64,000 nucleotides of DNA from Streptomyces candidus (GTDB lineage: Bacteria; Actinomycetota; Actinomycetes; Streptomycetales; Streptomycetaceae), in assembly GCF_014207445.1 (NCBI RefSeq), contig NZ_JACHEM010000004.1, positions 62,001 to 126,000 of the forward strand, written 5' to 3'. Under the pieces are notes generated by a model. It saw nothing but the letters and a program-made list of their open reading frames with translations, had not been told where the DNA came from and did no database searches. The position numbers were made by a program, and so were the translations under genes. Shown here piece after piece: positions 5,019 through 43,379 of the stretch (positions are counted from its first letter, which is position 1; each line of letters starts with the position of its first letter).

Positions 5019-5060
5019 CCCGTCGTCTCCTGTCTCGGTGATTGCACGCTCGGGCGATTC

Positions 5061-6179: not shown

Positions 6180-6191
6180 GCGGACGCCCGC

Positions 6192-8783: not shown

Positions 8784-8991
8784 ACGAAGCCCCGTGTCGC
8801 GGGCGGGGCGCGCCCCCGCCCGCCCACTCACCCGCCCGCAACCCTCCGCCCAAGCCCCGCCGCCACCTGAGCGCCCGCTTAGAATTGCGGCCCGCATCAC
8901 ACCGCCCACCCGGTGACCCCACCCGGTACGGACCGGTAACTTCGAAACAAGCCCGCCCAGTTCACTCGCCCCCGTATCCCCAGGAGCCCCG

Positions 8992-10212
8992 ATGCCCGAA
9001 GCCGTCATCGTCTCGACCGCCCGCTCCCCCATCGGCCGCGCCTTCAAGGGCTCGCTCAAGGACCTCCGCGCCGACGACCTCACCGCGACCATCATCCAGG
9101 CCGCCCTCGCGAAGGTTCCCGAGCTGGACCCGCGCGACATCGACGACCTGATGCTCGGCTGCGGCCTCCCCGGCGGCGAGCAGGGCAACAACCTGGGCCG
9201 CGTCGTCGCCGTGCAGATGGGGATGGACCACCTCCCCGGCTGTACGGTCACCCGCTACTGCTCCTCCTCCCTCCAGACCTCGCGGATGGCACTGCACGCC
9301 ATCAAGGCGGGCGAGGGCGACGTCTTCCTCTCGGCCGGCGTCGAGATGGTCTCCCGCTTCACCAAGGGCAACTCCGACTCGCTCCCGGACACGCACAACC
9401 CGCTGTTCGCCGACGCCGAGGCCCGTACCGCGGCCGTCGCCGAGCAGGAGGGCGCCACCTGGCACGACCCCCGCGAGGACGGCCTGGTGCCCGACGCGTA
9501 CATCTCCATGGGGCAGACCGCGGAGAACCTGGCCCGCCTCAAGGGCGTCTCGCGCCAGGAGATGGACGAGTTCGGCGTCCGCTCGCAGAACCTCGCCGAG
9601 GAAGCGCTCAAGAACGGCTTCTGGGAGCGGGAGATCACGCCGGTCACCACCCCGGACGGCACGGTCGTCAGCAAGGACGACGGCCCGCGCGCCGGCGTCA
9701 CCCTGGAGGGCGTCCAGGGCCTGAAGCCCGTCTTCCGCCCCGACGGCCGGGTCACCGCGGCCAACTGCTGCCCGCTCAACGACGGCGCCGCCGCCCTCGT
9801 GATCATGTCCGACACGAAGGCCGCCGAGCTGGGCCTGACCCCGCTCGCCCGCATCGTCTCCACCGGCGTCTCGGGGCTGTCCCCCGAGATCATGGGCTAC
9901 GGTCCGGTCGAGGCCAGCAAGCAGGCGCTGAAGCGCGCCGGGCTGACCGTCGGCGACATCGACCTCGCGGAGATCAACGAGGCGTTCGCCGCCCAGGTCA
10001 TCCCGTCCTACCAGGACCTGGGACTCGACCTGGACAAGGTCAACGTGAACGGCGGCGCCATCGCGGTCGGCCACCCCTTCGGCATGACCGGCGCCCGCAT
10101 CACCGGCACGCTCATCAACAGCCTGCAGTTCCACGACAAGCAGTTCGGCCTGGAGACGATGTGCGTCGGCGGCGGCCAGGGCATGGCCATGGTCATCGAG
10201 CGCCTCAGCTGA
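8992..10212 (+). CDS. Acetyl-CoA acetyltransferase (thiolase)
   Basis: The 406-residue product is a full-length thiolase of FadA/AtoB type, acting on acyl-CoA in fatty-acid breakdown or acetoacetyl-CoA formation. The acyl-accepting cysteine is in VTRYCSSSLQT (Cys90), followed by the NEAFA block, GGAIAVGHPFGMTGAR with the catalytic His, and CVGGGQG with the second catalytic Cys. ATG 8992 lies after CAGGAG. No partner hydroxyacyl-CoA dehydrogenase is adjacent, so pathway is not defined by context. A strong hairpin follows. Confidence 0.93.
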   Translation: MPEAVIVSTARSPIGRAFKGSLKDLRADDLTATIIQAALAKVPELDPRDIDDLMLGCGLPGGEQGNNLGRVVAVQMGMDHLPGCTVTRYCSSSLQTSRMALHAIKAGEGDVFLSAGVEMVSRFTKGNSDSLPDTHNPLFADAEARTAAVAEQEGATWHDPREDGLVPDAYISMGQTAENLARLKGVSRQEMDEFGVRSQNLAEEALKNGFWEREITPVTTPDGTVVSKDDGPRAGVTLEGVQGLKPVFRPDGRVTAANCCPLNDGAAALVIMSDTKAAELGLTPLARIVSTGVSGLSPEIMGYGPVEASKQALKRAGLTVGDIDLAEINEAFAAQVIPSYQDLGLDLDKVNVNGGAIAVGHPFGMTGARITGTLINSLQFHDKQFGLETMCVGGGQGMAMVIERLS

Positions 10213-28344: not shown

Positions 28345-29628
28345 TCACGTACGGGCGTCCCCGAACTCGACGGGGAGCGTGCGCAGTCCGCGCATGATGA
28401 GACCGCCGCGCCACCGCAAATCAGCAGGATCTTCCGCGAGCCGCAGGTCAGGAAGGCGGGTCAGGAGGGCGGCGAGCGCGGTCCTGGCTTCGAGCCGTGC
28501 GAGCGGCGCACCGAGGCAGTAGTGGATGCCGTGGCCGTAGCCCAGGTGCTGGTTGTCCCGCCGGCCGAGATCGAGACTGTCCGCATCCTGGAACCTCTCG
28601 GGGTCCCGGTCGGCCGCCGCGAGCACGACGAGCACCGGGTCGCCCGCGGCGATGTCCTGCCCGCCCAGGGTGAGTGCCTCGGTGGCGTACCGCCAGGTGG
28701 CGAGCTCCACCGGGCCGTCGTAGCGCAGGAGTTCCTCCACGCCGGTGGCGAGAAGGCCGTCCGGGTCGCCGTCGGCGAGGGCCTGCTGGAGGCGGGCGCG
28801 CTGGCCGGGGTTGCGCAGCAGGGCGTACACGCCGTTGCCGATGAGGTTGACGGTGGTCTCGAAACCCGCGAAGAGAAGGATGAAGGCCATGGCGGCGGCC
28901 TCGTTCTCGGTGAGGTGCTCGCCGTGGTCGCCGGCCCGGATCAGGTTCGAGATCAGGTCGTCGCCGAGGTCCTCGCGCTTGCGGTGGATCAGCTCGGCGA
29001 GATACGCCCGCATCTTCTTGACGGAGCGTGCGACGCCGCCGCGCGGCCCGCCGCCGTGGCGGATCATCATGCCCGCCCAGTCCCGGAAGTCGTCCTGGTC
29101 CTCGCGCGGCACGCCGAGCAGGTCGCAGATCGCGTAGATGGGGAGCGGGAAGGCGAACTCGTGGATGAGGTCGGCGGAGCCCTTCGCCTCGAAGGCGTCG
29201 ATGAGCCGGTCCGTCAACTCCCGCACACGGGGCTCGAACTCGGCCACCGTACGGGGGGTGAACGCCTTGGCGACGAGCCGGCGCAGCCGGGTGTGGTCCG
29301 GCGGGTCGATGTTCAGCAGGTGCGTCATCAGGTCGGCGCTGCGCTCGCCGGGGATGCCGGTCCTGCCCTTGGCGTGCGCGGATCCGGCGTGGTTCGCCGG
29401 GTTCTTGCTCAGACGCTGGTCGGCGAGGGCCTGACGGGCGTCCGCGTACCGGGTGACCAGCCAGGCCTCGACGCCGCTGGGCAGTTCGGTGCGTTGCACG
29501 GGTGCGTGCTCACGCAGCCACGCGTAAGCGGGGTAGGGATCGGTGGCGAACTCCCAGGTGAAGAGCGGGGGCTGCGGGCCGCGGGGGGCGTCGGACCCGG
29601 CGGCGGCCTCGTGTGCGGCGTCGGTCAC
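28345..29628 (-). CDS. Cytochrome P450
   Basis: The 427-residue product is a soluble actinobacterial P450. The heme-cysteine loop is LGYGHGIHYCLGAPLARLE, the I-helix oxygen-binding site FAGFETTVN, and the ExxR helix EELLRY. It resembles the CYP107-type group by its overall pattern, but substrate cannot be read from sequence. GTG 29628 overlaps the mazG stop (GTGA), so it is coupled to mazG. No ferredoxin gene is adjacent. Confidence 0.93.
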   Translation of the reverse strand: MTDAAHEAAAGSDAPRGPQPPLFTWEFATDPYPAYAWLREHAPVQRTELPSGVEAWLVTRYADARQALADQRLSKNPANHAGSAHAKGRTGIPGERSADLMTHLLNIDPPDHTRLRRLVAKAFTPRTVAEFEPRVRELTDRLIDAFEAKGSADLIHEFAFPLPIYAICDLLGVPREDQDDFRDWAGMMIRHGGGPRGGVARSVKKMRAYLAELIHRKREDLGDDLISNLIRAGDHGEHLTENEAAAMAFILLFAGFETTVNLIGNGVYALLRNPGQRARLQQALADGDPDGLLATGVEELLRYDGPVELATWRYATEALTLGGQDIAAGDPVLVVLAAADRDPERFQDADSLDLGRRDNQHLGYGHGIHYCLGAPLARLEARTALAALLTRLPDLRLAEDPADLRWRGGLIMRGLRTLPVEFGDART

Positions 29629-30884
29629 TGCTGGGCGTCCGTCCGGGGCGGGCGGGCTTCGGTCCGGTGCGGTGGGGCGTCCGTCCGGGGCTGGTGCGGG
29701 GCCGGGGTCTGTGCTTGTGGCCGGGTCTGCGGCGCCGTTCGTGGGGCTGCCCGCGCCCCCTCGGCCACCAGGATCGCGTCGCGGTACGCGCGGGCGGCGG
29801 CGCGCAGGGCGGTTTCCGGGTCCGTGCCTTCGGCTTCGGCGCGGGCGGCGAGGGCGAGGAGTTCGTAGCCGACGCGGTTTCCGGCGCCACCGGCTTCACT
29901 GCTGGTGGCCGCGGCGTCGGCACGCGCGCCGGTGGTCGCGCCGGCGCCACTGCCGCTGACTTCGCTGCCGCCGTCGCCGTCGGCCGGGGGTACGACGTCC
30001 AGGCCCGCGCTGCGTACCCGGGAGGCCAGTTTGGCGGCGAGGGCCAGAGCGGGCTGCGCGAGCGGGATGCCCTCCGTGACCGAGGCGCGCTGCTTCTCGA
30101 CGGCCTTGGTGCGCAGCCAGGTGGCCTTGACCTCCTCGGGCGTCTCGGCGGTCTCGTCGCCGAAGACGTGCGGGTGGCGGTGGATGAGCTTGTCGATGAG
30201 CGTGGCGGCCACGTCGTCGATCGAGAAGGGCGCGTCCGCCCCGTCCTCGTCCTCGTCCTCCCCGGGCGCTTCCTGCGCGATGCGGGCGTGGAAGACGACC
30301 TGGAGGAGTACGTCGCCGAGTTCCTCGCGCAGTTCCGTGCGGTCACCGGTCTCGATGGCCTCGACGAGTTCGTACGCCTCCTCGATGCCGTACTTGGCGA
30401 GGCCCTCGTGCGTCTGCCGGGAGGACCACGGGCACTCGCGGCGGATCCGGTCCATGACGTGGACCAGGTCGAGGAGGCGGGCCCCGGGCAGGTCGTACGA
30501 ACCGGGCAGGAGCTCCAGGTCGGGCATCTGGACCCTGTTCGACCCGGCGAGGCGGGCGAGACCGTCGGTGAGGCGCTGGTCTCCCTCGCCCGAGGGGAGG
30601 ACCACGGCGGTGCGCCCGCCCGCGCAGAACGCCACCAGTTCGTCGGCCGCCGGGACGTGCTGCTCGACGGCGACGCCCGCCTCCGCCAGGTACGGCAGCT
30701 GCGGGTGCCCCGGGTCGGCGCACAGCACCCGGTCCGCGGCGCGCAGCGTCTGCCAGGCGGGCCAGGACAGCAGGCCGGGGGCGACCCGGTGGCTGGCGGT
30801 GAGCAGGACGATGCGGCCGGGGGCGGACGCCGCGTCGGGTGCGTCCGGTGCGTCGTCAGGTGCGTCAGGTGTTTCTGTGGTCAC
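29625..30884 (-). CDS. mazG: MazG-family nucleoside triphosphate pyrophosphohydrolase
   Basis: The 419-residue product has a central MazG domain: RRECPWSSRQTHEGLAKYGI, EEAYELVEAI and LREELGDVLLQVVFHARIA, with the EExxE/ExxD metal ligands. The family hydrolyses non-canonical NTPs, and possibly regulates ppGpp. The N-terminal 120 residues are an extra domain typical of actinobacterial MazG; the extreme start is a DAPDDAPDAPD repeat. The C-terminal 80 residues are low complexity (Pro/Arg/Thr). The GTG start at 30884 directly abuts GAAGG, so a leaderless start is possible. Confidence 0.9.
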   Translation of the reverse strand: MTTETPDAPDDAPDAPDAASAPGRIVLLTASHRVAPGLLSWPAWQTLRAADRVLCADPGHPQLPYLAEAGVAVEQHVPAADELVAFCAGGRTAVVLPSGEGDQRLTDGLARLAGSNRVQMPDLELLPGSYDLPGARLLDLVHVMDRIRRECPWSSRQTHEGLAKYGIEEAYELVEAIETGDRTELREELGDVLLQVVFHARIAQEAPGEDEDEDGADAPFSIDDVAATLIDKLIHRHPHVFGDETAETPEEVKATWLRTKAVEKQRASVTEGIPLAQPALALAAKLASRVRSAGLDVVPPADGDGGSEVSGSGAGATTGARADAAATSSEAGGAGNRVGYELLALAARAEAEGTDPETALRAAARAYRDAILVAEGARAAPRTAPQTRPQAQTPAPHQPRTDAPPHRTEARPPRTDAQQ

Positions 30885-31027
30885 CCTTCGACGTTACCCG
30901 TGGGGCACGACGGGCCGGCCGCCCGGTCGCGCCGCACAACCCGCCCGGTCGCGCGGCCGGGTCGGGGTCCGCTCGCGTGACCGTACGGCGGGGGTGGCCG
31001 GTCCCGGGTTGGGGCGCCGGTTCCGGG

Positions 31028-31717
31028 TTACGGGGCCGGTTCCGGGGCGGGCTGGGCGCCCGCGTCCTGTGCGGCCTGTGCCTCGCTGTCCTTGGTCTTC
31101 TGGTTGATCCACGGGGCGCGGTGTTCGACGAGGCCGATCTTCGCGTCGTCCCAGTCGCCGTACCGCGGGTTGACGTCGATCTTCAGGGACTTCGACGCCT
31201 CGGCGAGGATTTGGGTGACCTTCTGCTGGCCCGCCGGGTCGGCGAGGTTGGCGCCGTTCGCGACGGCGATCTTGTTGAGCAGGATCTCCTGGCGGACGGC
31301 CTGCTCGATCTGGTCCGGCGCGATGCCGCGCTGGAGCAGCATCGCCTCCAGCTTGTCCGCTCCCTGCGCCTGCCCGACGGCGGCGTCGCGCGCCTGCTGG
31401 ATCTCCTTGCGGGAGGCGGTGACCCCGGCGTCCGCGGCGGCGCGCTCGACGACCCGGCCGAAGATCATGCTGTGCAGCTTGGCACGGCCCATCTGTCCGG
31501 TGCCGCTGATGGCCTGGTCGCCCTGCGGCGACTTCGCCTGTGCGTTCCGTACGTCCCTGACCTGTCCCTGGAGCGAGGACACCTCGATGCGGTCGCCGTC
31601 CACGAGGGCCGCCGCGCCGGGGTGCGCCTCGCCGCCGCAGGCCGTGAGGAGGGGGGCTGCGGCGAGCAGTCCGGCGGAGAGGAGGAGCGAGGTGCGGGTG
31701 CGCGTACGGCGGTGCAA
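31028..31717 (-). CDS. SurA N-terminal-like lipoprotein
   Basis: The 229-residue product has a lipoprotein signal (SLLLSAGLLAAAPLLTAC, lipobox LTAC) and a helical SurA/PrsA-like N-terminal domain (RAKLHSMIFGRVVERAAADA; VRQEILLNKIAVANG). It should act as an extracytoplasmic chaperone anchored to the membrane. It lacks a visible rotamase domain. The start is TTG 31717, five bases after GGGAGG; no ATG or GTG in frame is better placed. Confidence 0.85.
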   Translation of the reverse strand: MHRRTRTRTSLLLSAGLLAAAPLLTACGGEAHPGAAALVDGDRIEVSSLQGQVRDVRNAQAKSPQGDQAISGTGQMGRAKLHSMIFGRVVERAAADAGVTASRKEIQQARDAAVGQAQGADKLEAMLLQRGIAPDQIEQAVRQEILLNKIAVANGANLADPAGQQKVTQILAEASKSLKIDVNPRYGDWDDAKIGLVEHRAPWINQKTKDSEAQAAQDAGAQPAPEPAP

Positions 31718-31779
31718 AGGGTGCCTCCCGGGTGGCGGTGATCGTGCGGCGTTGCACAACAGCCTTGCGGTTGTTGATG

Positions 31780-32796
31780 TTAGGCAGCCGGAGTGGTCCG
31801 GGCCACTGGTTCGACCAACGAGTCGTTCATGAGTTGGGATGCGGCGGGGCCCGGGTACGGCCGGGTGTGGGGCTCGCCGTCGGTCTCGCTCACCAGGAAG
31901 TGCGGGCGGCGCTTGGTCTCGTAGTAGATCCGGCCGACGTATTCGCCGATGACGCCGAGCATCACCATCTGCACCCCGGAGAACGCGGTGACGGCGACGA
32001 GCAGGGTGACGTAACCGGGGGTGTCCACGCCGTTGACCAGTGCGTCCCCGACGATCCACGCGGTGTACAGGCCGGCGACGGTGAGCAGGGCGAGTCCGAG
32101 GTAAAGGGCGGCACGCAGCGGCTTGTCGTTGAAGGAAAGGACACCGTCGAGGCCGTAGTTGAGGAGTTTTCCGAAGGTGTATTTCGAGCGGCCCTGTGCA
32201 CGGACCTCGTTTTCGTAGGAGAAGGTCGCGGTGGGAAATCCTATCCAGGCGAAGAGGCCTTTGGAGAAACGGTTGTACTCGGTGAGCCGGAGGACGGCGT
32301 CCACCGCGCGGCGGGAGAGCAACCGGAAATCACCCACACCGTCGACGAACTCCACGTCGACGAGGCGGTTGACCAGCCGGTAGTAGGCGCGGGCGGTGAG
32401 GGCACGGGTGAAGCGGTCTCCGGTGCGGTTGCGGCGGGCGACGACCTGGTCGTGGCCCTGGGCGTGCAGGGAGATCATGCGGCCGATGAGTTCGGGCGGG
32501 TGCTGGAGGTCCGCGTCCATGATCACCACGGCGTCTCCCGTGGCGTGCCGCAGGCCCGCCAGCATGGCCGCCTCCTTTCCGAAGTTCCGGCTGAAGGAGA
32601 CGTAACGGACGCGGGCGTCGGTGGCGGCCAGCTCACGGATGTGCGTGAGGGTGTCGTCCCGGCTGCCGTCGTCGACGTAGACGAATTCGAATGCGGTGGT
32701 GGGGGCGAGGGGGCCGATTTCCCGTGTGACGCGGTCGTGGAATCGCCGGACGGTGTCCGCCTCGTGGAAACAGGGCACGACGAGGGAGATGAGCAT
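31780..32796 (-). CDS. Family 2 glycosyltransferase, polyprenyl-phosphate type, copy 1
   Basis: The 338-residue product has the GT2 fold: SLVVPCFHEADTVRRF, the VDDGSRDDT nucleotide site, SFSRNFGKEAAMLAGLRHAT, the metal-binding IMDADLQHPPELI, and two C-terminal membrane segments (ALYLGLALLTVAGLYTAWIV; VAVTAFSGVQMVMLGVIGEY). It matches GtrB/DPM1-type enzymes that load a sugar onto undecaprenyl phosphate. Start is unsure: ATG 32796 fits the family, GTG 32832 would add 12 residues, and neither has a ribosome site. It is divergent from a YfhO-like gene. Confidence 0.9.
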   Translation of the reverse strand: MLISLVVPCFHEADTVRRFHDRVTREIGPLAPTTAFEFVYVDDGSRDDTLTHIRELAATDARVRYVSFSRNFGKEAAMLAGLRHATGDAVVIMDADLQHPPELIGRMISLHAQGHDQVVARRNRTGDRFTRALTARAYYRLVNRLVDVEFVDGVGDFRLLSRRAVDAVLRLTEYNRFSKGLFAWIGFPTATFSYENEVRAQGRSKYTFGKLLNYGLDGVLSFNDKPLRAALYLGLALLTVAGLYTAWIVGDALVNGVDTPGYVTLLVAVTAFSGVQMVMLGVIGEYVGRIYYETKRRPHFLVSETDGEPHTRPYPGPAASQLMNDSLVEPVARTTPAA

Positions 32797-32918
32797 GTGC
32801 CATGGCAGCGCGCGGAGATGACGTTCTCTCACGGGGGAGGTGACGGGCGGCGGGCGATTCGGTTAACGGAATCGCGGGACGGTGGTGGAGCGCCATCCGC
32901 CTGTTTAGGTTCGGTTCC

Positions 32919-35480
32919 ATGCTCATTCGGCTTCCCGGAAAACGCCCCGTCGCGGCTTCTGCCCTGCTCGCCGCCCTCGTGGCGGGTTTCACCCACTGTC
33001 TGGGGTCGGCGCTGGCCGGAAGCCGGCCGTTCGGCTCGATGAACCGGAACGTGAACGACCTGGGAACGCAGTTCGTCCCCTTCCACACGTATCTCTGGGA
33101 CCTGCTGCACGGCCGTGCAGACGGCGGCTGGCTGATCAACTGGCAGGCCGGATACGGCTCCAGTTTCCTGCCGGACCTGGGCACCTACCTGTCGAGCCCG
33201 TTCGCCCTGCTGGTCGCGTTCTTCCCGCGGGATCGAATAGACCTCGCGGTGTACGTGGTGTCGGTGGCCCGGATAGCGGTGGCGGCGGCGGTGATGGCCT
33301 GGCTGCTGATGACGATGCGCCCGAAGGGGCGCTGGTGGCTCGCCGGGACACTGGGTTCCGCGTACGCGCTGTGCGGCTGGGCGGTGACCGAGGCGTCGTA
33401 CAACCCGATGTGGCTGGACGGGCTGATCGCGTTCCCGCTGCTGTGCGTGGTGGGCGAGTGGGTGCATGCGGGGCGCGGGCTGCGGGTGTGGTTCGTGGGC
33501 GGGGTGCTGCTGGTGGCGCTCGTGTGGACGGCGAACTTCTACACGGCGTACATGGCGACCCTCGGGGCGGGGCTGGTGCTGGGGGCGCGGCTGCTGATGG
33601 AGGGGGGCCCGCGTCCGCTGCGTACGGCGGCACGGGCGTGCGCGGTGGTGGCGCTGGGAATCGGGCTGTCCGCGCCGGTGCTGCTCACGGTGTTCGCGGG
33701 GACCCGGCACGCGTATCCCGGGATGGGCCTGACGTTCCGGCCGGCCGGGTGGGGCGAGGTGCTGGCACGGCTGATCCCGGGGACGTACGCCTTCAGCTCC
33801 CCCGCCATGTACGTGAGCTCGGCGGTCCTGGTCCTGGCCCTCGCGCTGCCCTTCCACCGGGGGGTGGCGGTGCGGATACGGGCGGGGTGGTGCGTGCTCG
33901 TGGTGGCGGTGCTGGTGTCGATGCAGTGGGGGCCCACCCATCTGGCGTGGCACGCGTTCGCGGAGCCCAACGGGAGCCCGTACCGGCAGACGTTCGTCCT
34001 GTCCGGGGTGCTGGTGATGGCCGCGTGGGCGGCGGTGTGCGGCGGCGCGCCGGGGCGGCGGGCGCTGACGGGCGCTGCGGGCTCCGTGGTGCTGCTGGGG
34101 CTGGCCGGACTGGGGAGTTCGGATACCGGAAGGGGGGCGTGGCTGGGCTGGGGGGCCGGGCTGGTGGCGGTGGTGGGTGCCCTGGTGCTGCTGAGGAGGG
34201 CGGCGCCGGTGGGGCCCGCGGCACGGCGCCGGTACCTGGCGGCGGCGGCCGTCCTGCTGGTCGGGTGCACGGTCGGGCAGTCGGCCCTGACCACGGCGTG
34301 GGCGGCGCAGCGCCGGGTGGCGACGCAGGACGACCACGCGCCGTACGGGGAGCGCCAGGCGGTGCAGCGCGCGGTGATCGCGGACGTCGGCGGCTGGCCG
34401 CGGTGGCGTACCGACCCGGGGCGGACGCAGACCGTGCACAACGACGCGCTGGTGGTCGGCGGTCAGGGCGTCTCGTACTACAGCAGCATGACCTCCGACG
34501 TGCTGACCCGGACCCTGACCGCGCTCGGCGACGGCTGGAACGGCAGCGGACGCGCGCCGCACAGTCTGGACAACCCGGTGACCGACGCGGTGTTCGGGGT
34601 CGGCGCCCGGCTGCGGTCGACGTACCGGCAGGGGCGGGACACGGAGTTCGAGGTGGTGCGGAGGCAGGCGGGACCGCTGGTGGGGATACGGCCGGCCGGC
34701 GGCCCGGCCGCGTACGGACACTCCGCCTTCGCCAACCAGGAACTGCTGCTGGGGGCGCAGGTCTACGAGCGGCTCGCGGGGACCTCGGGGGCGTGCACGC
34801 CGGGGACGCCGGTGTACGTGTGGGCGCCCGGTCTGAAGGGCACGGCGCGGCTGGCCGGCGGTCCCGCGGTCCGCTTCGAGGCCAAGAAGGGGCGGGTGCG
34901 CGCGCCGATGCAGGGCGTGGGGGCGGCCCCGGCGGACGGCAGGGTGCGCGTCGAGCTCCGGGGCACGGGGGCGCGGGGCGCGGAGGTGGCGTGCTTGCGG
35001 GAGGACCGGCTCGCCACGGCGGTACGGGAGCTGAGGGCGACGGCGGCGGACACCGTGGAGGTGGGGGACGGGACGGTACGGGCGCGGTGGGCGAGCGGCC
35101 GGGCGGCCGACGGGACCGCGGTCCTGGCGATTCCGCGGATCGCGGGGTGGCGGTGCGCGGTGGACGGCGGCGGGCTGCGGCCGGCCGACGCGTACCTGGG
35201 GCTGGTGGCGGTGCCGGTGGGGGCGGGAACCCGGGAGGTCCGGTGCGCGTTCCGGCCGCCGGGGCTGCGGGCGGGGGTGGTGGTGGGCGCCGGGGCGTTG
35301 GCAGCCGTGGCGACGGTCGCGGTGGTGGGCGCTCTGCGGCGCAGACGCGAGGACGCGGGTCCGCACGGGGAGGCGCCCTCGACGGGGGACGGCCCGGCCG
35401 CGCTTTCGCGGCCCTCGACGGGCACCGGGCGGGAAGCCACGGACACCGGGCGGGCCGAAGCGGTCCGGCCCGCCCGGTGA
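32919..35480 (+). CDS. YfhO-like giant membrane protein, copy 1
   Basis: The 853-residue product has about twelve membrane segments in the first 450 residues and an extracytoplasmic C-terminal half, the YfhO layout. The block NDLGTQFVPFHTYLWDLLHG then INWQAGYGSSFLPDL is characteristic of the family. YfhO proteins are GT-C type glycosyltransferases that move sugars from a polyprenyl carrier to a cell-surface polymer. It is paralogous to the C-terminal part of the GtrA fusion that converges on it 18 bases away. ATG 32919 has no strong ribosome site. Confidence 0.88.
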   Translation: MLIRLPGKRPVAASALLAALVAGFTHCLGSALAGSRPFGSMNRNVNDLGTQFVPFHTYLWDLLHGRADGGWLINWQAGYGSSFLPDLGTYLSSPFALLVAFFPRDRIDLAVYVVSVARIAVAAAVMAWLLMTMRPKGRWWLAGTLGSAYALCGWAVTEASYNPMWLDGLIAFPLLCVVGEWVHAGRGLRVWFVGGVLLVALVWTANFYTAYMATLGAGLVLGARLLMEGGPRPLRTAARACAVVALGIGLSAPVLLTVFAGTRHAYPGMGLTFRPAGWGEVLARLIPGTYAFSSPAMYVSSAVLVLALALPFHRGVAVRIRAGWCVLVVAVLVSMQWGPTHLAWHAFAEPNGSPYRQTFVLSGVLVMAAWAAVCGGAPGRRALTGAAGSVVLLGLAGLGSSDTGRGAWLGWGAGLVAVVGALVLLRRAAPVGPAARRRYLAAAAVLLVGCTVGQSALTTAWAAQRRVATQDDHAPYGERQAVQRAVIADVGGWPRWRTDPGRTQTVHNDALVVGGQGVSYYSSMTSDVLTRTLTALGDGWNGSGRAPHSLDNPVTDAVFGVGARLRSTYRQGRDTEFEVVRRQAGPLVGIRPAGGPAAYGHSAFANQELLLGAQVYERLAGTSGACTPGTPVYVWAPGLKGTARLAGGPAVRFEAKKGRVRAPMQGVGAAPADGRVRVELRGTGARGAEVACLREDRLATAVRELRATAADTVEVGDGTVRARWASGRAADGTAVLAIPRIAGWRCAVDGGGLRPADAYLGLVAVPVGAGTREVRCAFRPPGLRAGVVVGAGALAAVATVAVVGALRRRREDAGPHGEAPSTGDGPAALSRPSTGTGREATDTGRAEAVRPAR

Positions 35481-35498: not shown

Positions 35499-38400
35499 TC
35501 AGCCCACCCGGGCGACGGCCCGTACGCCGCTTTCCGTCCCCGGTGCCGCGTCGGTGACCACCGTGCCGGTGCGCCCCGTGTCGCGCCCGCCACGGCGCCC
35601 CCGGGTGCGGGACCGCACCGCGACGCCCGCCAGCACCGCCAGTCCCGCTGCGCTGCCCAGCAGTCCGGGCGTCAGGCCCGCCTGGGTGTACGTGCAGGTG
35701 AAGCGGGACGCCCGTTCCCCGAGCGGGACGGCGATCAGGCCCTGGAAGGCGGCCGCGGGGCGCGGCGCTCCGCCGTCCACGGCGCACTGCCAGCCCTTCA
35801 CGGCGGGCGCCGCCACCACCGCGGTGCCTCCGGTGCGCTCGCGCAGCGTGGCGCGGATCTCATGTCCGGACATGGTGAGCTGGGCCGGGGCGGAGACCCG
35901 CAGGGCGGAGATCGCGCTGTTCAGCCTGCCGCTGTCCAGGCAGCCCACCGGGCGTTCCGGGATCCACTGCCCCTTCCTGGTCGGGACGAAGGACACCGTG
36001 AGGCGGCCGTTGCCCGGCACCTGTGCCAGTTCGCGCACCGGAGCCGCCGTCATCGTGCTGCCCCGGCCGAACCACGCCCGGTCGGGACCGCCCGAGACGC
36101 CCACCCGCCCCGCGAACCACGGTGCGTGCGCGTACGCCGTACTGCCGGGAGAGCACCGCACCTCGAAGACGCTGCGGTGGCCCTTGCGGACCGGCCAGCC
36201 CTCGGGGCCCGGCCGTTCCCCGTTCGCCGCCCGCAGTCCGGGCACCTGGTACACGGGAGCGCCGATCGCACTGTTCAGCCGGTCGAAGGCGGTGTCGGCG
36301 GTGTCCGCGGTGTCCGCGCCCACCGGGGCCCCTGAGGTGTCCGTGCGCACGCCCTGCGGTCGTACCGTCACCACCGGCGCCGCTTCCGCCCGGCGGATCT
36401 CGGCGTTGCGGGTGCCCACCGGATTCGCGGCGACGTAGGTCGTGGAACCCATCAGCGCCAGGCCGACGGGCTCTTCGAAGCTCTTGGTGTGACGGCCCTC
36501 GATGTACCAGCCCGCGCCCAGCCGCTGAAGGGTGCGCGCCGTCTCCACGGGCAGGTGACTGCTGTAGTACGCGCCGCCCTGACCGCCGAGCAGCATCGGG
36601 TCGTTGTTGGCGTACTCGTGCGGCCCCGGGTCGCTGCGCTGCCAGGGGAGGCCGTCCCCCGCGCGCAGCGCCTCGCGCGTCCTGAGCGTCTCGGCGTCGT
36701 AGGTGCGCTTGGGGTGGTACCAGGGGATGCGGTCCTTGATGGCGGTCACCGAGAAGACGGTGTACGCGCAGGACAGCAGCACCGCGCAGCCGAGCCCGGC
36801 GGCGACCAGCGCGCGTGCCGTGCGCGCGCCGGGAAGTCCCGGCCGCCCGTACCGGTGCAGCAGCCACAGTCCCGCCCACATCACCGGGATGCCGCCGAGG
36901 GACAGCACCAGGGTGGAGGTGCCCACCGTCTTCTGTCCGGCGGTGAACAGCACCGCGGCGGCCAGCACGGCCGCCCCGCGCAGGAGTTCGCGCGGTTCGG
37001 GTACGCGGGAGAGCGCCAGCCACGCCACCATCGTGAGGATGCCGCTGAGGACGAACGTCGCCCGGTACGGGCTGCCGTTGGGCAGTGCGAACGCGTGCCA
37101 CAGCAGTACGCCCGGTTCGAGCACGAAGGACACCGCGACCAGCAGGACGAGCCCCCACCACAGCACCCGCTCACGCACCGGCGCCGACTTCTGGAAGAGG
37201 TACGTGGCGACCAGGACCAGCCCCAGGAGCCCGAAGCAGATGCCGGGGGCCACCATCGAGGTGCGGCCGCCGGGGAAGATCTGGGCGAGGTAGAGCACCG
37301 GGTCCGGTGGGCCCTTGTACGGGCGGGCCGTGACCGGCTGCGACGCCTTGCTGGAGAGGTACGAGACGGTGAGCGCGGGCGCGACCAGCAGCAGTGACGT
37401 CGCGGCCATGCCGGCCGCCCGCAGCAGTACGCGCGTGCGCGCGCGCCAGGACAGGTCGTCCCGCAGCAGCAGCCGTACGACCAGTACGAGTGCCGCGCCG
37501 AGGGTGGCCATGGCCGCGGTGTAGAAGTTCGCCGCCCAGCACAGGGCGACGAGCAGGGTGCCGAGGACCCAGCGGCGCCCGTGCAGGCACCAGTCGGCGG
37601 CGATGCCGATGAGCGGCAGCGCGATGGGCCCCCACATCCACATGGGGTCGGCGGCACCGTCGCTGATCACCCAGGCGCACAGGGCGTACCCGACCGCCAG
37701 CAGCCCGCGCTGCCAGGCGGGGCCGGGGCGCAGCCTGGCCAGGAAGACCGTCATGGCGGTGGCGGCGAGGCCGAGGCAGAGCAGGGTGACCAGGAAGACG
37801 GGCAGCTCGACCATGTCGCGCGGGAACAGTGCGACGAGGAACGAGAGGGGGTTGGTGAGGTAGGTGAAGAAGTCGGGGAGGAACGGGACGCCGTATCCGC
37901 TGTTCCAGTTGTAGAGCAGGTCGCCCTGCGCCTCGCCGTGCAGCAGGTCCCGCAGGTGCGCGTGGTACGGCACGAACTGGTTGCCGAGGTCGTTGACGGC
38001 CCTCGACTTCGGCCCGAAGGGGTACACACCGTTCAGCGCCAGGCCCAGGCTGTAGGCGGCCATGGCGACGACTCCGGCGAGGGCGGCGACCGGCCGTTCG
38101 GCGGAGAGCAGGCGACCGGCGCGCTGCTGCCACGCGCGCGCACGCGCGGGCGTGGCGGGGGTGACGCGGGTGGCACCGGCGGTGGCGGTGCCCGGAGTCG
38201 TGCCGGGGCCGTTCGCCGTGCGGCCGTTCTCCGCGGGGCCGTTCTCCGCGGGGCCGTTCTCCGCGGGGCCGTTCTCCGCGGGGCCGTTCTCCGCGGGGCC
38301 GTTCTCCGCGGGGCCGTTCCCGGCCGCGGTTGCGTCCTCGCGGGTCAGGATCCGCCGCGACAGTACGAACGTCACGGGGATGGCCGCCGCAGCCGCCACC

Positions 38401-38705
38401 AGCGGCGCGATCCGCTCGTCCATGTCGCACCACTCGACGAGCACGAAAACGCCCACCGAGGTGACGACGAAGTTCGTCAGGTTGGTGAGCGGGAACAGCA
38501 GGAACTTCCGCCAGGTGGGGCGGGTGCGATAGGTGAAGTAGGTGTTCAGGAAGAACGAACCCACCATGCTGAGCAGGAACGCCACCACGTAGGCGGGGTA
38601 GTACGGCAGCCACTGGTGCAGGACCAGGTAGAAACCGTAGAACGTGCCCGTGTTGACCGCGCCCACCAGCGCGAACCGGAGCACCTGAAGGATCTGCGAA
38701 CTCAC
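35499..38705 (-). CDS. GtrA-YfhO fusion membrane protein
   Basis: The 1068-residue product begins with a GtrA domain (about residues 5-125: VLRFALVGAVNTGTFYGFYL, FLLSMVGSFFLNTYFTYRTR, four membrane segments). A linker follows with six tandem NGPAE units, then a YfhO-like protein (VNDLGNQFVPYHAHLRDLLH; YNWNSGYGVPFLPD) with many membrane segments and an outer C-terminal domain. GtrA is usually a separate flippase-like protein that works with a GT2 enzyme, so the fusion joins flipping and transfer. I start at GTG 38705, which overlaps the upstream glycosyltransferase stop (GTGA); GTG 38726 is an alternative. Confidence 0.9.
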   Translation of the reverse strand: MSSQILQVLRFALVGAVNTGTFYGFYLVLHQWLPYYPAYVVAFLLSMVGSFFLNTYFTYRTRPTWRKFLLFPLTNLTNFVVTSVGVFVLVEWCDMDERIAPLVAAAAAIPVTFVLSRRILTREDATAAGNGPAENGPAENGPAENGPAENGPAENGPAENGRTANGPGTTPGTATAGATRVTPATPARARAWQQRAGRLLSAERPVAALAGVVAMAAYSLGLALNGVYPFGPKSRAVNDLGNQFVPYHAHLRDLLHGEAQGDLLYNWNSGYGVPFLPDFFTYLTNPLSFLVALFPRDMVELPVFLVTLLCLGLAATAMTVFLARLRPGPAWQRGLLAVGYALCAWVISDGAADPMWMWGPIALPLIGIAADWCLHGRRWVLGTLLVALCWAANFYTAAMATLGAALVLVVRLLLRDDLSWRARTRVLLRAAGMAATSLLLVAPALTVSYLSSKASQPVTARPYKGPPDPVLYLAQIFPGGRTSMVAPGICFGLLGLVLVATYLFQKSAPVRERVLWWGLVLLVAVSFVLEPGVLLWHAFALPNGSPYRATFVLSGILTMVAWLALSRVPEPRELLRGAAVLAAAVLFTAGQKTVGTSTLVLSLGGIPVMWAGLWLLHRYGRPGLPGARTARALVAAGLGCAVLLSCAYTVFSVTAIKDRIPWYHPKRTYDAETLRTREALRAGDGLPWQRSDPGPHEYANNDPMLLGGQGGAYYSSHLPVETARTLQRLGAGWYIEGRHTKSFEEPVGLALMGSTTYVAANPVGTRNAEIRRAEAAPVVTVRPQGVRTDTSGAPVGADTADTADTAFDRLNSAIGAPVYQVPGLRAANGERPGPEGWPVRKGHRSVFEVRCSPGSTAYAHAPWFAGRVGVSGGPDRAWFGRGSTMTAAPVRELAQVPGNGRLTVSFVPTRKGQWIPERPVGCLDSGRLNSAISALRVSAPAQLTMSGHEIRATLRERTGGTAVVAAPAVKGWQCAVDGGAPRPAAAFQGLIAVPLGERASRFTCTYTQAGLTPGLLGSAAGLAVLAGVAVRSRTRGRRGGRDTGRTGTVVTDAAPGTESGVRAVARVG
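38222..38322. repeat. 15-bp minisatellite inside the fusion gene
   Basis: The unit GGGCCGTTCTCCGCG repeats head to tail about six times and encodes NGPAE units on the minus strand. Being a multiple of three, copy-number change lengthens or shortens the linker without breaking the frame. Confidence 0.9.
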
Positions 38706-39736
38706 TGACCGACAGTCCTGTTCCACGTCGCCGACAGCGGTACCCCGGTGCTCGCCACCGCGCCCGCTTCGGTCGCTCCGGACCGCGTGCGTATCGGTGA
38801 AGCGGAGTCAGCGCCCGACGCGTTCGTTTCCTTCACCAGGAAGTGCGGGCGGCGCTTCGTCTCGTAATAGATCCGGCCGATGTATTCGCCCACCAGTCCC
38901 AGCATCACCATCTGTGCGCCGCCCATTCCGACGATCGCCGCCAGCAGGGTCGCGTATCCGGGGGTGCGCACGCCGAACGCGAGGGTGCTGACGACGGTCC
39001 ACGCCGCGTAGAGAGTGGCCAGGCCCGCCAGTAGGAGACCGAGGTGAATGGCGACCCGCAGCGGCCGGTTGTTGAACGAAATGAGACCGTCGACGCCGTA
39101 GTTGACGAGGGCGCCGAAACGCCATTTCGTCTCGCCGGCCTCCCGCGCCACATTGGTGTAGTCGAAGGTGACGGTGTCGAAGCCGATCCAGGAGAACAGC
39201 CCCTTGGAGAAGCGGTTCTGCTCGGGCATCGACAGGAGTGCGTTGACGGCCCGTCGTGACAGCAGCCGGAAGTCGCCGACGCCGTCGACGAGCTCGACGT
39301 CCACCCAGCGGTTGACCATGCGGTAGTACGCCTTGCCCAGGGCCTTGCGCAGACGCGACTCGCCGCTCCGGTCGCGCCGGGCGATGACCTGGTCGTGGCC
39401 GACGGCGTGCAGCTCCAGCATGCGGCCGATGAGCTCCGGCGGGTGCTGGAGGTCCGCGTCCATGATCACCACGGCGTCACCCGTGGCCTCGCGCAGGCCG
39501 GCCAGCATGGCGGCCTCCTTGCCGAAGTTCCGGCTGAAGGAGGTGTAGCGCAGCCCGGCGGGGTTCTTCTTCGCGAGCGCGCGCAACAGGTCGAGCGTGC
39601 GGTCGGAACTGCCGTCGTCGACGTAACAGATTTCGTAGTCGACGGGCAGGGAATCGAGCAATGCTCTGGTTTTCGCGTCGAAGGACTCGATCACCATTTC
39701 TTCGTTGTAACAGGGCACCACCACCGACAGGCGCAT
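38702..39736 (-). CDS. Family 2 glycosyltransferase, polyprenyl-phosphate type, copy 2
   Basis: The 344-residue product is a clear paralogue of the enzyme at 31780-32796: SVVVPCYNEEMVIESF, VDDGSSDRT, SFSRNFGKEAAMLAGLREAT, IMDADLQHPPELI and two C-terminal membrane segments. It should attach a sugar to undecaprenyl phosphate at the inner membrane face. ATG 39736 is chosen because GGAAG lies about nine bases upstream; GTG 39745 overlaps it. Its stop overlaps the start of the GtrA-YfhO fusion, so the pair is coupled and likely works on one sugar. Confidence 0.92.
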   Translation of the reverse strand: MRLSVVVPCYNEEMVIESFDAKTRALLDSLPVDYEICYVDDGSSDRTLDLLRALAKKNPAGLRYTSFSRNFGKEAAMLAGLREATGDAVVIMDADLQHPPELIGRMLELHAVGHDQVIARRDRSGESRLRKALGKAYYRMVNRWVDVELVDGVGDFRLLSRRAVNALLSMPEQNRFSKGLFSWIGFDTVTFDYTNVAREAGETKWRFGALVNYGVDGLISFNNRPLRVAIHLGLLLAGLATLYAAWTVVSTLAFGVRTPGYATLLAAIVGMGGAQMVMLGLVGEYIGRIYYETKRRPHFLVKETNASGADSASPIRTRSGATEAGAVASTGVPLSATWNRTVGQ

Positions 39737-39826
39737 GGGTGTCACTTCCGGTCTGTACGGGAGAGGCTGTTGGTCGCCTATCGAGACAGTGATTCCCGGA
39801 ACTCGGTTGCCTCACTGTGAGGTACA

Positions 39827-40783
39827 TCACATATGACGAAGAAAAGCGGAAGTAGCCACCACTCCTTCGAGAACAAGCTTCGAACGGCCGTCGCCCAGAT
39901 GTGTTTCCAGCGCCTCCCGGACACCGGGCCAGGCCGCGTCGCCGTAGTCGTCGAGCACGACGATTCCGCCGTCCGCGACGATCTCCTCGGCCCACCGGAG
40001 ATCGGCGAGAACACCCTCCCTGGAGTGGTCGCCGTCCACCACGATCACCCCGTAGCGCCGGTCGGACACGGACGCACGTATGTGCGAATCCTGTGAGAAA
40101 CCCTTGTAGATACGGGCCGTTGCGGTCGGCGACCCGGCCGCTTCGAGTGCGGTTCCGGCCAGGGCGAGGTTGGCGCGCACGACGTCCTCGCGCACCGGCG
40201 TACCGGTGGGGTCGGCGTGGTCGTGGGTCGCGTCGGGCTGGAGCTGCGAGCCGGCGAAGGGGTCGACGATGGTCAGCCGCGGCTCGATCCCCTCGCGGTG
40301 CAGCATGCGGGTCAGGGCGGTCGCGAACAGTCCGTGGAGGGTCCCTATTTCGAGCACTTCGGGGTTCGGCGGAGCCATAAGCGGAATGGTGGCGAGTTTT
40401 CCGCAGACGTTGGACGTGCCGCCCGCGAGACGTCCGACGCCCAGCGCTTCGAGCGCGACGACGGTCCGGAAGGCGGAGGTCACCGCCCGCCGCGCGTGCG
40501 CGCTGCCGCTGACCTCCGCCACCTGGCCGACCAGTGCGGTGATCTGTCCCGCGGACGGCATGCGGTGGGCACCCCGGCCGGTGCGGTCGAGCAGCATCCC
40601 GACGGCGTGGCTCTGCTTCTTCAGCACGTCGAGTTCGGCACGGAGGGCGGCGACCTCGCTCTGGGTCGCGCGGGCCTGGGCGCGCACGCGCTGGTCGACC
40701 CGCTGGTCGACGAGGGCCGCGAGCGGGCGCAGGGCACGGCGGGCGAGGGGAAGGGTCCGCAAGGGGCGGGTCAGCAGGGGCAT
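39827..40783 (-). CDS. SAM-dependent methyltransferase of Methyltransf_24 type
   Basis: The 318-residue product has a likely coiled-coil N-terminus (about residues 28-60), a SAM-binding block (VLEIGTLHGLFATALTRM) and IVVDGDHSREGVLADLRWAE then GGIVVLDDYGDAAWPGVREA, typical of class I O-methyltransferases of the Methyltransf_24 group. ATG 40783 has no ribosome site; the frame is open for a long way upstream but overlaps the kinase gene and is not credible. It may methylate the glycan made by the genes downstream. Transcription is in line with them after a 90-base gap. Confidence 0.8.
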   Translation of the reverse strand: MPLLTRPLRTLPLARRALRPLAALVDQRVDQRVRAQARATQSEVAALRAELDVLKKQSHAVGMLLDRTGRGAHRMPSAGQITALVGQVAEVSGSAHARRAVTSAFRTVVALEALGVGRLAGGTSNVCGKLATIPLMAPPNPEVLEIGTLHGLFATALTRMLHREGIEPRLTIVDPFAGSQLQPDATHDHADPTGTPVREDVVRANLALAGTALEAAGSPTATARIYKGFSQDSHIRASVSDRRYGVIVVDGDHSREGVLADLRWAEEIVADGGIVVLDDYGDAAWPGVREALETHLGDGRSKLVLEGVVATSAFLRHM

Positions 40784-40974: not shown

Positions 40975-42552
40975 TCAGCCCCGGCCGCCGCCCAGTTGCC
41001 GCTGGCGCTCCAGCGCCCGGCGCACCTCGCCCACCAGCGGGTGGTACCCGCCGTACGCACGCTCCGCGTCGTACAGTAGTGCCTGCAGCTGCCGGACCGC
41101 TTCCCCGTGGCCGCCCGTCGCCAGCAGCAGTTGGGCGGCGCGCAGGCGCAGCTCGAAGGAGCGCGCGGGGTCGTTGCCCGAGACGTAACTGTTCTCGTAG
41201 TAAGGAAGCAGCGCCCGGTACTCGGCGAGTGCCGCCGCCGGTTCGCCGAGCTGTTCCAGGCACTGGGCGGCGTCGTACCGGAACTGGAGGGCCTGAGGGT
41301 CCGCCGGGCCGCTCTCGGCGGCGCGTTCGTCGGCGAGGCGGCGCAGCTCGGGCAGGGCACGCCGGTACTGGCCGTCGTCGAGCAGCGTCGCCGCGTACTG
41401 CTTGCGCAGGATGCGCACCACCGGGGAACGCTCGCCGTGTTCCGCCGCGGCGGCCGGGAGGATGTTGCCGAGGATGTCGACCGCCTGGGTGATCCGGCCC
41501 TCGCCGAGGAGCTGTTTGACCTCGTCGACGGCTCCGGCGACGTCGGGCCGCGACGGTGGCGGCGGCGGAGTCCGCGTCGGCGGCACGGGCGGTACGTGGA
41601 CGGGCGGGGGCACGGCCGCCGCCCGGTCGGGCCACGGGGCGTGCGGGCGCAGGAAGGGCCGGGTCGGGTCGAGCGGGCCCGCGGGGGCCACGCCGTACGG
41701 GGCCGGGTGCGGGCCGCGGGCCGGCAGCAGCGGTGCGAGGCGCTCGTACACCTCCTGGGCGGAGCCGGGCCGGTACTGCGGGTCCTTGGCGAGCAGGTGC
41801 AGGACGAGCGCTTCGAGTGCGCCGGGGACCTCGGGCCTGTTCCGGCGCACCGGCAGCGGCGGCTCGTAGAGGTGACGGTGCAGGATGCCCAGCGCGGTGC
41901 TCCCGGCGAACGGGACGTCCCCGGTGAGGAGCTCGTGCAGCAGGACGCCCAGCGCGTAGAGGTCGGTGTACGGGCCGACCGCGCCGCCCATCGCCTGCTC
42001 CGGCGCCATGTACGCGGGCGTACCGATGGGGGTGCCGGTATGGGTGAGGCGGGTGGTGTCGGTGTCGAGCACGGAGGCGATGCCGAGGTCGAGCACGGTG
42101 ATGGTGCCGTCCGGTCGCACCATGACGTTGCGGGGCTTGAGGTCGCGGTGCACGATCGGGACGGCGTGCACGGCGGAGAGCACCGCGCACAGCTGGGCGG
42201 CGACGGAGACGGCCCACTGCCAGGGGTAGGGGGCCGTCTCGGCGTGGTGGTCGGCGAGGTCGGCGCCCTCGACGTACTGCATGACCAGGTACAGGTCCTC
42301 GGTGTCGCTGCCCGCGTCGTGCACGGTGACCAGGCCGGGGTGGTCGACCTGAGCGGTGACGCGGCACTCGCGCACGAAGCGGCGCCGCAGGTCCTCGGCC
42401 TCGGCGGCGGCGGCCATCCGGTCGGGGCGCAGCAGTTTGACGGCGACCCGGCGGTCCAGGCGCTGGTCGTAGGCCGTCCAGACCTGGCCCATGCCGCCCT
42501 GGCCGATGAGGGTGGAGAGCTCGTAGCGGCCCGCGACGACACGGCCGTTCAC
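40975..42552 (-). CDS. Serine/threonine protein kinase with C-terminal TPR-like region
   Basis: The 525-residue product has a complete Hanks-type kinase domain (residues 8-265): LIGQGGMGQVW, AVKLL with the ATP lysine, IVHRDLKPRNVMV, DLGIAS (DLG in place of DFG), and GTPAYMAPEQ. A Pro-rich stretch (about 285-345) joins it to a helical TPR-like region (YRRALPELRRLADERAAESG; YDAAQCLEQLGEPAAALAEY). There is no membrane segment. GTG 42552 overlaps the stop of the upstream membrane-protein gene (GTGA), so the two are coupled; GTG 42555 is an alternative. Confidence 0.93.
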   Translation of the reverse strand: MNGRVVAGRYELSTLIGQGGMGQVWTAYDQRLDRRVAVKLLRPDRMAAAAEAEDLRRRFVRECRVTAQVDHPGLVTVHDAGSDTEDLYLVMQYVEGADLADHHAETAPYPWQWAVSVAAQLCAVLSAVHAVPIVHRDLKPRNVMVRPDGTITVLDLGIASVLDTDTTRLTHTGTPIGTPAYMAPEQAMGGAVGPYTDLYALGVLLHELLTGDVPFAGSTALGILHRHLYEPPLPVRRNRPEVPGALEALVLHLLAKDPQYRPGSAQEVYERLAPLLPARGPHPAPYGVAPAGPLDPTRPFLRPHAPWPDRAAAVPPPVHVPPVPPTRTPPPPPSRPDVAGAVDEVKQLLGEGRITQAVDILGNILPAAAAEHGERSPVVRILRKQYAATLLDDGQYRRALPELRRLADERAAESGPADPQALQFRYDAAQCLEQLGEPAAALAEYRALLPYYENSYVSGNDPARSFELRLRAAQLLLATGGHGEAVRQLQALLYDAERAYGGYHPLVGEVRRALERQRQLGGGRG

Positions 42553-43379
42553 CACGCCCGGCCGCCCTCACCGTTCCGGCGGTCCTCGCCGTCGCGGCCG
42601 CTCTCGCCGTTGCGGCCGTCCTCGCCGTTGCGGCCGCTTCCACCGTCGCGACCGCTTTCGCCCTTGCGGTTGCGGCTGTCGCGGTATCCGGGCTCCCTGC
42701 GCAGCAGCTCGCTCAGCTCGTCGAGCTCGGCGCGCACCTGGTCGATGCGGGGCGCGGACGGCAGCGGCTGCCGGGTAGGCGGTCCGGGCTGCGGTGCGGA
42801 GTGCTGCGGGCGGGACTGCGGCGGGGAGGGCTGCGGGTGGGAGTGCGGTTCGGGCTGCTTTGGCGGGGCGGCCGGGTAGCCGTAGGCGGGCCCCGGCGCG
42901 CCGTCCGGGACGGTCGGGCGGTCGTACGGGCCGGGCTGCTCGGGGTGCTGCGCCGGCGGGAACGGCCGGTGCTGCGGTACGGCGGAGACAGGCCCCCACG
43001 CGTGGGGCTGCGGCCGCGGCGTCCGGTAGTGGGTGATGTCCGCGATCAGGAAGTACGTCGCCACCCCGACGGAAAGGACGGCGAGAGCCAGCACACCCAC
43101 CGTGTCGACGGTGTTGAATTCCGCCGGCGCCGCAGAATCGTCCGAGGGCGGCGCCCCGTACAGCCCGACGATGGCGAGCAGGGTGTAGCCGAGGACCAGC
43201 ACGGTCGAGAAGACCACCCAGTCGGCGGCGCGCTTGCGCAGGATCGCGATCCGCAGCGGCGCCGCCCACGTCAGCAGCCCGCAGCTGCACAGGGCGCACA
43301 CGGTGAACAGCACCCGCAGCGCGACCAGCACGGCGGGGCTGGGCTGACTGCGCGGCGGCGCGTGGCCGGAGCCGGGCAT
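42549..43379 (-). CDS. Membrane protein with Pro-rich region and charged repeat tail
   Basis: The 276-residue product has three likely membrane segments (VALRVLFTVCALCSCGLLTW; VFSTVLVLGYTLLAIVGLYG; VGVLALAVLSVGVATYFLIA), a Pro/His/Gln-rich cytoplasmic region and a C-terminal tail of RNGE/RDGE repeats. A short helical segment (IDQVRAELDELSELLRREPG) precedes the tail. ATG 43379 follows AGGAG. It is coupled to the kinase and may be its membrane partner or substrate; I do not recognise the family. Confidence 0.75.
   Translation of the reverse strand: MPGSGHAPPRSQPSPAVLVALRVLFTVCALCSCGLLTWAAPLRIAILRKRAADWVVFSTVLVLGYTLLAIVGLYGAPPSDDSAAPAEFNTVDTVGVLALAVLSVGVATYFLIADITHYRTPRPQPHAWGPVSAVPQHRPFPPAQHPEQPGPYDRPTVPDGAPGPAYGYPAAPPKQPEPHSHPQPSPPQSRPQHSAPQPGPPTRQPLPSAPRIDQVRAELDELSELLRREPGYRDSRNRKGESGRDGGSGRNGEDGRNGESGRDGEDRRNGEGGRAW

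Follow-up and report, generated by a model that had tools for sequence, protein, structure and literature searches.

A GtrA-YfhO fusion protein encoded beside a GT2 gene in Streptomyces candidus

We analysed a stretch of 64,000 nucleotides from Streptomyces candidus (assembly GCF_014207445.1, contig NZ_JACHEM010000004.1), referred to as the window, in which a single gene, gtrA::yfhO, encodes a GtrA domain and a YfhO protein as one chain. We could confirm that this GtrA-YfhO fusion is real and unusual; the pathway itself is already known in kind. Taken as a whole, our best explanation, which we consider likely, is that the fusion and the adjoining GT2 gene form a three-component transmembrane glycosylation system of the CsbB/GtcA/YfhO kind in two genes. 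The parts of the fusion gene are as follows:

35499..38705, minus strand: gtrA::yfhO fusion gene, 1068 amino acids, with a GTG start that overlaps the stop codon of the GT2 gene
38349..38678, minus strand: GtrA domain, Pfam match at residues 10-119 of the 1068-residue chain, four membrane helices predicted
38151..38348, minus strand: linker, about residues 120-185, modelled with low confidence
38204..38319, no strand: 15-bp tandem repeat, 7.7 copies, in frame, coding for NGPAE repeats in the linker
36510..38069, minus strand: membrane core of YfhO (GT-C), residues 213-732, the stretch that Pfam matches best
37989..37991, minus strand: codon of Asp239, invariant in 33 aligned proteins, candidate catalytic base
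35937..36257, minus strand: beta-rich domain like carbohydrate-binding modules, residues 817-923, middling resemblance
35574..35675, minus strand: C-terminal YfhO helix, residues 1011-1044, according to the model

One reading frame for two domains

A single open frame of 1068 codons and a stop spans positions 35499-38705 on the minus strand. The open reading frame as listed begins at 38726; a GTG further in, at 38703-38705, shares bases with the stop codon TGA (38702-38704) that ends the GT2 gene (38702-39745; GTGA), and a start there fits the coordinates that the original prediction had given for the fusion. An overlap of start and stop codons is common in translational coupling, and this overlap supports the proposed coupling to the GT2 gene.

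Both Pfam domains are found in the same chain, each well above its cut-off: GtrA_DPMS_TM, the GtrA / DPMS (dolichyl-phosphate-mannose synthase) membrane domain (PF04138), with 75.8 bits against a cut-off of 26.1, and YfhO (PF09586) with 232.4 bits against 28.5. The GC content of third codon positions is 0.88-0.98 across all 60-codon blocks of GtrA, linker and YfhO. The open frame, the two domains and the unbroken coding bias confirm the claim that GtrA and YfhO are one chain.

We scanned codons 118-235 for a start codon that would serve YfhO separately. There is no ATG, GTG or TTG in codons 118-214; CTG codons occur at 120 and 199, and the earliest of the three usual starts is an ATG at codon 215. 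Since this ATG falls within residues 186-224, which the model shows as the first helix of YfhO, a separate start for the whole of YfhO is unlikely. A basic stretch comes before this helix, and the linker is therefore probably cytoplasmic, which would suit both halves. The exact repeat unit of the linker occurs nowhere else in the window, and among 164 fetched loci we see it only in four loci of the same place.

Occurrence of the fusion among relatives

Among the genomes searched, all of them within the phylum, we find the fusion in this genome only. Our genus set comprised 392 genomes, including that of S. candidus itself, some near relatives of which may lie outside the set. At E <= 1e-36, 160 of the 392 genomes have a GtrA match, one each. 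Frame lengths cover 154 of these 160 genomes (150 places listed and four more). Among the 150 places listed, frames above 800 amino acids outside our own genome occur in five genomes (G117, G020, G332, G387 and G341), in all of which the genes are separate; beyond these places, four of the ten remaining genomes show frames of at most 523 amino acids. YfhO matches at E <= 1e-15 are present in 14 of 396 genomes of the phylum. Only one frame outside our own genome exceeds 1100 amino acids (G440, locus L132); it encodes a long YfhO without any match to GtrA.

We compared the frames of 117 loci, with our own genome left out; some genomes are represented twice, and two overlapping stretches of a Priestia plasmid are included. 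Relatives of GtrA and YfhO occur together in 50 of these loci and share a frame in none of them, so that the original prediction, according to which each usually has a gene of its own, is correct as far as these relatives go. A common frame for GT2 and GtrA, in contrast, occurs in four of the 82 loci with both (L102, L103, L105 and L107), and in all four both domains were confirmed by Pfam. These GT2::GtrA fusions are the opposite joining to the GtrA::YfhO of the window. Their GtrA belongs to a more distant group, 39-42% identical to the fused GtrA.

Among plasmid and phage records (6 and 11 with a match, respectively) we were not able to find a chain that matches both parts. Similarly, a literature search by titles and the openings of abstracts, with few subscription journals covered, gave no description of a GtrA-YfhO fusion.

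Predicted folds of the two halves

The GtrA part was modelled from 25 sequences. The best model has a mean predicted local distance difference test score (pLDDT) of 91.3, the remaining four 69.6-83.1. On the membrane domain of DPMS (5mm1) it superposes with Z 16.9 over 122 aligned residues (root-mean-square deviation, rmsd, 1.7), the next unrelated row having Z 6.4, and a search of the PDB by sequence with the GtrA profile also leads to DPMS (E 2.6e-6). According to the model, the GtrA part has four membrane helices and a GtrA-like fold. Rows of Integrator subunit 13 (E 0.014 and above) and one row of the YfhO profile at E 0.92 in the PDB sequence searches were put down to chance. The fused GtrA holds 26 of the 26 columns that are strongly conserved in 24 rows, the distant row L109 being left out of the count. 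In the Listeria GtcA, R95 and N132 are reportedly needed for function.

The genome has two more GtrA genes, both distant from the fused GtrA, which is the sole close member of its subfamily there. One of the distant genes sits near a gene of the UbiA family; other genes near it resemble those that we take to be responsible for decaprenyl-phosphate arabinose.

GtrA could also be an anchor, docking the GT2 enzyme and tying it to the GT-C protein, with the lipid handled by another protein or by the GT-C protein itself. The model superposes on the membrane domain of DPMS, which is itself connected to a GT2 enzyme, GT2 and GtrA share a frame in the four loci mentioned above, and the mycobacterial GtrA protein Rv3789 has been argued to act as an anchor that recruits AftA (reported in PMC7389260). 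Fusion to a GT-C protein is what would be expected of an anchor; however, it is equally compatible with channelling from a flippase. Moreover, LTA (lipoteichoic acid) loses its sugars when GtcA is missing, both in Listeria monocytogenes and in Bacillus subtilis (PMC7389260). The authors of the Listeria study favour flipping, while noting that biochemical proof of flipping by GtrA is lacking (PMC7389260). Weighing these points, we hold the anchor to be a possible but rather doubtful explanation.

The model of the whole chain was built from 33 rows, the other 32 of which are all YfhO proteins, and from about residue 200 on its pLDDT is mostly at least 90. The YfhO model gives Z 16.2 to AftD (548 aligned residues, rmsd 5.2), Z 11.4-15.7 to oligosaccharyltransferases and Z 12.0 to ArnT; since helical models may reach about Z 13 through common arrangement alone, AftD and the top oligosaccharyltransferase rows bear the weight of this comparison. 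In the model, the YfhO part has the GT-C fold. Asp239, which corresponds to the conserved Asp expected in the first outer loop of YfhO proteins, opens the model helix 238-255, just past the first YfhO helix. GT-C enzymes have a proposed catalytic Asp at the matching place after the first helix (PMC11127046), and Asp239 is a candidate for the catalytic base. Residues 817-923 resemble CBM6, CBM35, CBM86 (carbohydrate-binding modules) and other beta-sandwiches with Z 6.5-7.0, a range in which the resemblance is possibly only one of common arrangement. Of 116 strongly conserved columns, the fused YfhO holds 107, fewer than any other of the 31 rows (the distant rows L144 and L145 were left out of this count).

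Neighbourhood and history of the locus

The fusion gene lies within a group of genes, of which the following are of interest here:

38702..39745, minus strand: GT2 gene for a predicted polyprenyl-phosphate sugar synthase like CsbB, GtrB and PgfS, with a DAD motif (residues 96-98)
32919..35480, plus strand: YfhO2, a second YfhO that is not fused and whose gene converges with the fusion gene
31780..32832, minus strand: GT2b, the second GT2, in divergent orientation to YfhO2; relatives usually have a gtrA after GT2b, which is missing here
39827..40783, minus strand: Methyltransf_24 methyltransferase, part of the same conserved block, reversed with respect to the eight loci that have the methyltransferase
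40975..42555, minus strand: Ser/Thr protein kinase, one flank of the conserved block
28345..31711, minus strand: genes of a SurA-like lipoprotein, MazG and a cytochrome P450, the other flank of the conserved block

Judged by homology over both the catalytic domain and the C-terminal part and by its DxD-type motif, the GT2 partner of the fusion appears to be a CsbB/GtrB-type enzyme. Its nearest solved relative is Synechocystis sll0501 (E 1.8e-77, residues 4-306), followed by undecaprenyl-phosphate-Ara4FN transferases. Elsewhere in the genome (C4, near 15033), a protein of 1242 residues at 5470-9198 of locus L108 has a GT2 domain and a weak C-terminal YfhO match of 20.4 bits, which is below the cut-off.

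The full block, found in five loci, consists of the kinase, methyltransferase (reverse), YfhO2 (reverse), GT2b, gtrA, SurA-like, MazG and P450 genes. In 24 further loci the SurA-like/MazG flank is present and other parts are missing. Between the same flanks, the window has the kinase, the methyltransferase (turned), GT2, gtrA::yfhO, YfhO2 (reverse), GT2b and the SurA-like gene; at 31711-31780 GT2b directly adjoins the SurA-like gene, with no gtrA between them. The second GT2/YfhO pair, the missing gtrA and the rarity of the fusion were not part of the original prediction.

That prediction had named two findings that together would tell against it, namely homologues in the form of two separate genes and a junction created by an assembly error. 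The homologues are indeed separate genes, and there are reasons to suspect two genes misjoined at the repeat: the assembly is a draft of 64 contigs, the repeat lies at the joint, and the gene order is unlike that of relatives. However, the kinase/methyltransferase side and the YfhO2/GT2b/SurA-like/MazG/P450 side belong to one block in relatives, so that misassembly is unlikely. The locus is situated at about 100 kb in a contig of 514 kb, the exact repeat unit is confined to this place in the window and the 164 fetched loci, and both frame and coding bias continue without a break. We therefore find an artefact very improbable.

To describe the arrangements in relatives, we surveyed 89 loci including that of the window (E <= 1e-15); many were picked by a GtrA match, so that gtrA loci are over-represented. 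In 21 loci a GT2-GtrA pair has no neighbouring YfhO, while 14 loci have the order YfhO2-GT2b-GtrA and 10 the order YfhO-GT2-GtrA. Some of the GT2-GtrA pairs adjoin an apparent proB and a gene for a GT2/CDP-glycerol glycerophosphotransferase (Pfam scan of the L056 product). At least two YfhO loci are present in 17 of 22 genomes checked, most of which had been picked for a lone GT2-GtrA pair. Loci L147 and L148 have the block with YfhO2 but with neither GT2b nor GtrA, and their genomes (G134 and G042) hold a GT2-GtrA pair elsewhere. In addition, we see a third Streptomyces class of YfhO, a clade of its own with 37-40% identity to the fused YfhO (L134-L136, L140, L149-L151), and no GT2 or GtrA match in the stretches fetched for it. 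In L015, L082, L085 and L127, relatives of GT2 or YfhO2 are broken over at least two frames, by sequencing error or decay.

We divide the relatives into class A, which includes the YfhO-GT2-GtrA operons of Streptomyces, and class B, to which the GT2b/YfhO2 loci with their gtrA belong. The fused GtrA falls outside the 46-row class-B clade (98/98) in a tree in which 43 of 81 forks are below 80, with few columns and an unsettled bootstrap. The fused YfhO falls inside class A (SH-aLRT, the Shimodaira-Hasegawa-like approximate likelihood ratio test, 98; 12 of 63 forks below 80), and so does the joint GT2 and GtrA sequence (98; 24 of 75 forks below 80). This placement fits either a YfhO-GT2-GtrA operon or a GT2-GtrA pair as the source. 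We infer that a class-A GT2-gtrA::yfhO unit entered the block and that the class-B gtrA is gone: in this lineage a class-A gtrA, together with its GT2, probably became fused to a class-A yfhO beside an existing class-B GT2b/YfhO2 locus, which would then have lost its own gtrA.

A less eventful history would be a chance read-through that was fixed in one strain, with both halves working as before, no benefit from the joining and a linker repeat produced by slippage. The single genome among those searched, the slippage-prone 15-bp repeat at the joint and the fused YfhO, which departs from more conserved columns than any other of the 31 rows, are what one would expect in this case. On the other hand, 1068 codons have stayed open with constant coding bias and GtrA has kept all its conserved columns. 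Furthermore, the free gtrA of the block is gone, and the genome thus seems to depend on the fused copy. We think that a joining of this neutral kind is on balance unlikely, though worth keeping in mind.

A proposed three-component system in two genes

A GT-A synthase, a GtrA-type carrier protein and a GT-C transferase, the components of a transmembrane glycosylation system, are all present, and the same three genes adjoin each other in relatives. The CsbB/GtcA/YfhO system of B. subtilis, Staphylococcus aureus and Listeria consists of the same three families, with the steps inferred to follow in the same order; however, its proteins are separate polypeptides, whereas in the window GtrA is within one GT-C chain. 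Closer by sequence are the Streptomyces YfhO-GT2-GtrA operons (L009, L010, L013, L014, L015, L070, L079, L092, L126 and L130, with identical proteins in L010 and L126), which are 46-53% (YfhO), about 70% (GT2) and 60-70% (GtrA) identical to the class-A proteins of the window. These operons have three separate genes and begin with YfhO, while the unit in the window begins with GT2 and has GtrA and YfhO joined as a single gene. The order of the window, GT2-GtrA-YfhO, is found on the Priestia megaterium plasmid NZ_CP151786.1, but its genes are unfused, with a gap of 91 bp between gtrA and yfhO and a GtrA that is 44% identical to ours. In DPMS (5mm1) and the four GT2::GtrA genes, GtrA is covalently joined to a partner from the same pathway, as it is here; there the partner is the synthase, which acts at the opposite end of the pathway, here it is the outer-face transferase.

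In the mechanism that we propose, the GT2 enzyme would use a nucleotide donor to load polyprenyl phosphate with a sugar on the inner side of the membrane. The GtrA domain would move the sugar-lipid to the outer face or present it there, and the covalently joined YfhO GT-C domain would pass the sugar to an extracellular polymer, which the carbohydrate-binding-like domain perhaps holds. Loading, flipping and transfer in two genes had been predicted before: the families fit loading by GT2, carrier handling by GtrA and outer-face transfer by YfhO, while flipping itself is a step that we infer. As acceptor, a teichoic acid of the glycerol-phosphate type or some other glycopolymer of the wall would be most likely. 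Known three-component systems decorate LTA, wall teichoic acid and other wall polymers (PMC8035078, PMC7389260).

Alternatively, the system may glycosylate proteins, as does the streptococcal Pgf system. The Pgf models of Streptococcus mutans are the nearest in NCBIfam: PgfS is the best match of GT2, and PgfM2 and PgfM1 are those of the YfhO part. In L160 and L162, gtrA is next to an epimerase-family gene, and the Pgf operon, too, includes an epimerase (PMC5856776). However, all matches are below the equivalog cut-offs (379.9 of 500 bits for PgfS, 73 of 1400 for PgfM1 and 95.7 of 1500 for PgfM2), for which reason we rejected filing the locus as a Pgf system, and the CDP-glycerol glycerophosphotransferase-like gene beside some GT2-gtrA pairs points to teichoic acid. 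By a count of terms, the word GtrA is absent from the main text of the paper on the pgf operon (PMC5856776). Protein glycosylation strikes us as improbable.

The fused GtrA would probably serve both GT2/YfhO pairs of the window. In favour of such sharing, the 160 genus genomes with a GtrA match at E <= 1e-36 have one such GtrA each, while most of the 22 genomes checked have several YfhO loci. One GtcA in Listeria, or one CflA in Lactococcus, serves several GT-A/GT-C pairs (PMC8035078). Three of our loci (L018, L020 and L021) have a GT2b/YfhO2 pair without a neighbouring gtrA; since the genome carries one GtrA elsewhere in all three cases, one GtrA for several pairs seems to be common in the genus. 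In two of these genomes (loci L160 and L162), no GT2 of this kind adjoins the gtrA found elsewhere; directly upstream of it there is an epimerase-family gene (4799-5791 and 4725-5864, respectively), possibly a hint at the sugar. More specifically, the fused GtrA::YfhO, as the sole carrier of its subfamily, might feed its own YfhO within the chain and YfhO2 in trans, for example in a mixed oligomer. We put this forward tentatively and hold it to be rather unlikely. If true, it would be a natural covalent flippase-transferase complex and would directly show that GtrA and GT-C proteins operate in contact, without a free pool of sugar-lipid.

Several observations weigh against the proposed mechanism. 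We found no close relative that shares the fusion and would let us gauge selection on a joined chain. The whole-chain model is poor in the GtrA part, where it has no aligned relatives, and silent on contact between the halves, and the carbohydrate-binding resemblance is of the middling kind described above. Given its low column conservation, the YfhO half may possibly be drifting. The genes of the window point to no particular acceptor or sugar, and the best NCBIfam matches, though below their cut-offs, are the protein-glycosylating PgfS, PgfM1 and PgfM2. Finally, the two distant GtrA genes of the genome might serve the GT2b/YfhO2 pair.

Conclusions

What is new here is that GtrA, a presumed flippase, is joined to YfhO, a presumed outer-face transferase, whereby a pathway of known kind is rewired. 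Whether members of the GtrA family are flippases or anchors is disputed, and biochemical proof is lacking (PMC7389260); a tie between the presumed flippase and its user sharpens this dispute. In a chain that joins GtrA and GT-C naturally, both parts are present in a set ratio and side by side, which could help to test the one role against the other; the purified fusion protein and GT2 might be enough to reconstitute the entire pathway in liposomes. Since GtrA is tied to one GT-C protein beside a second pair that has no gtrA, specificity and sharing can be tested at a single locus.

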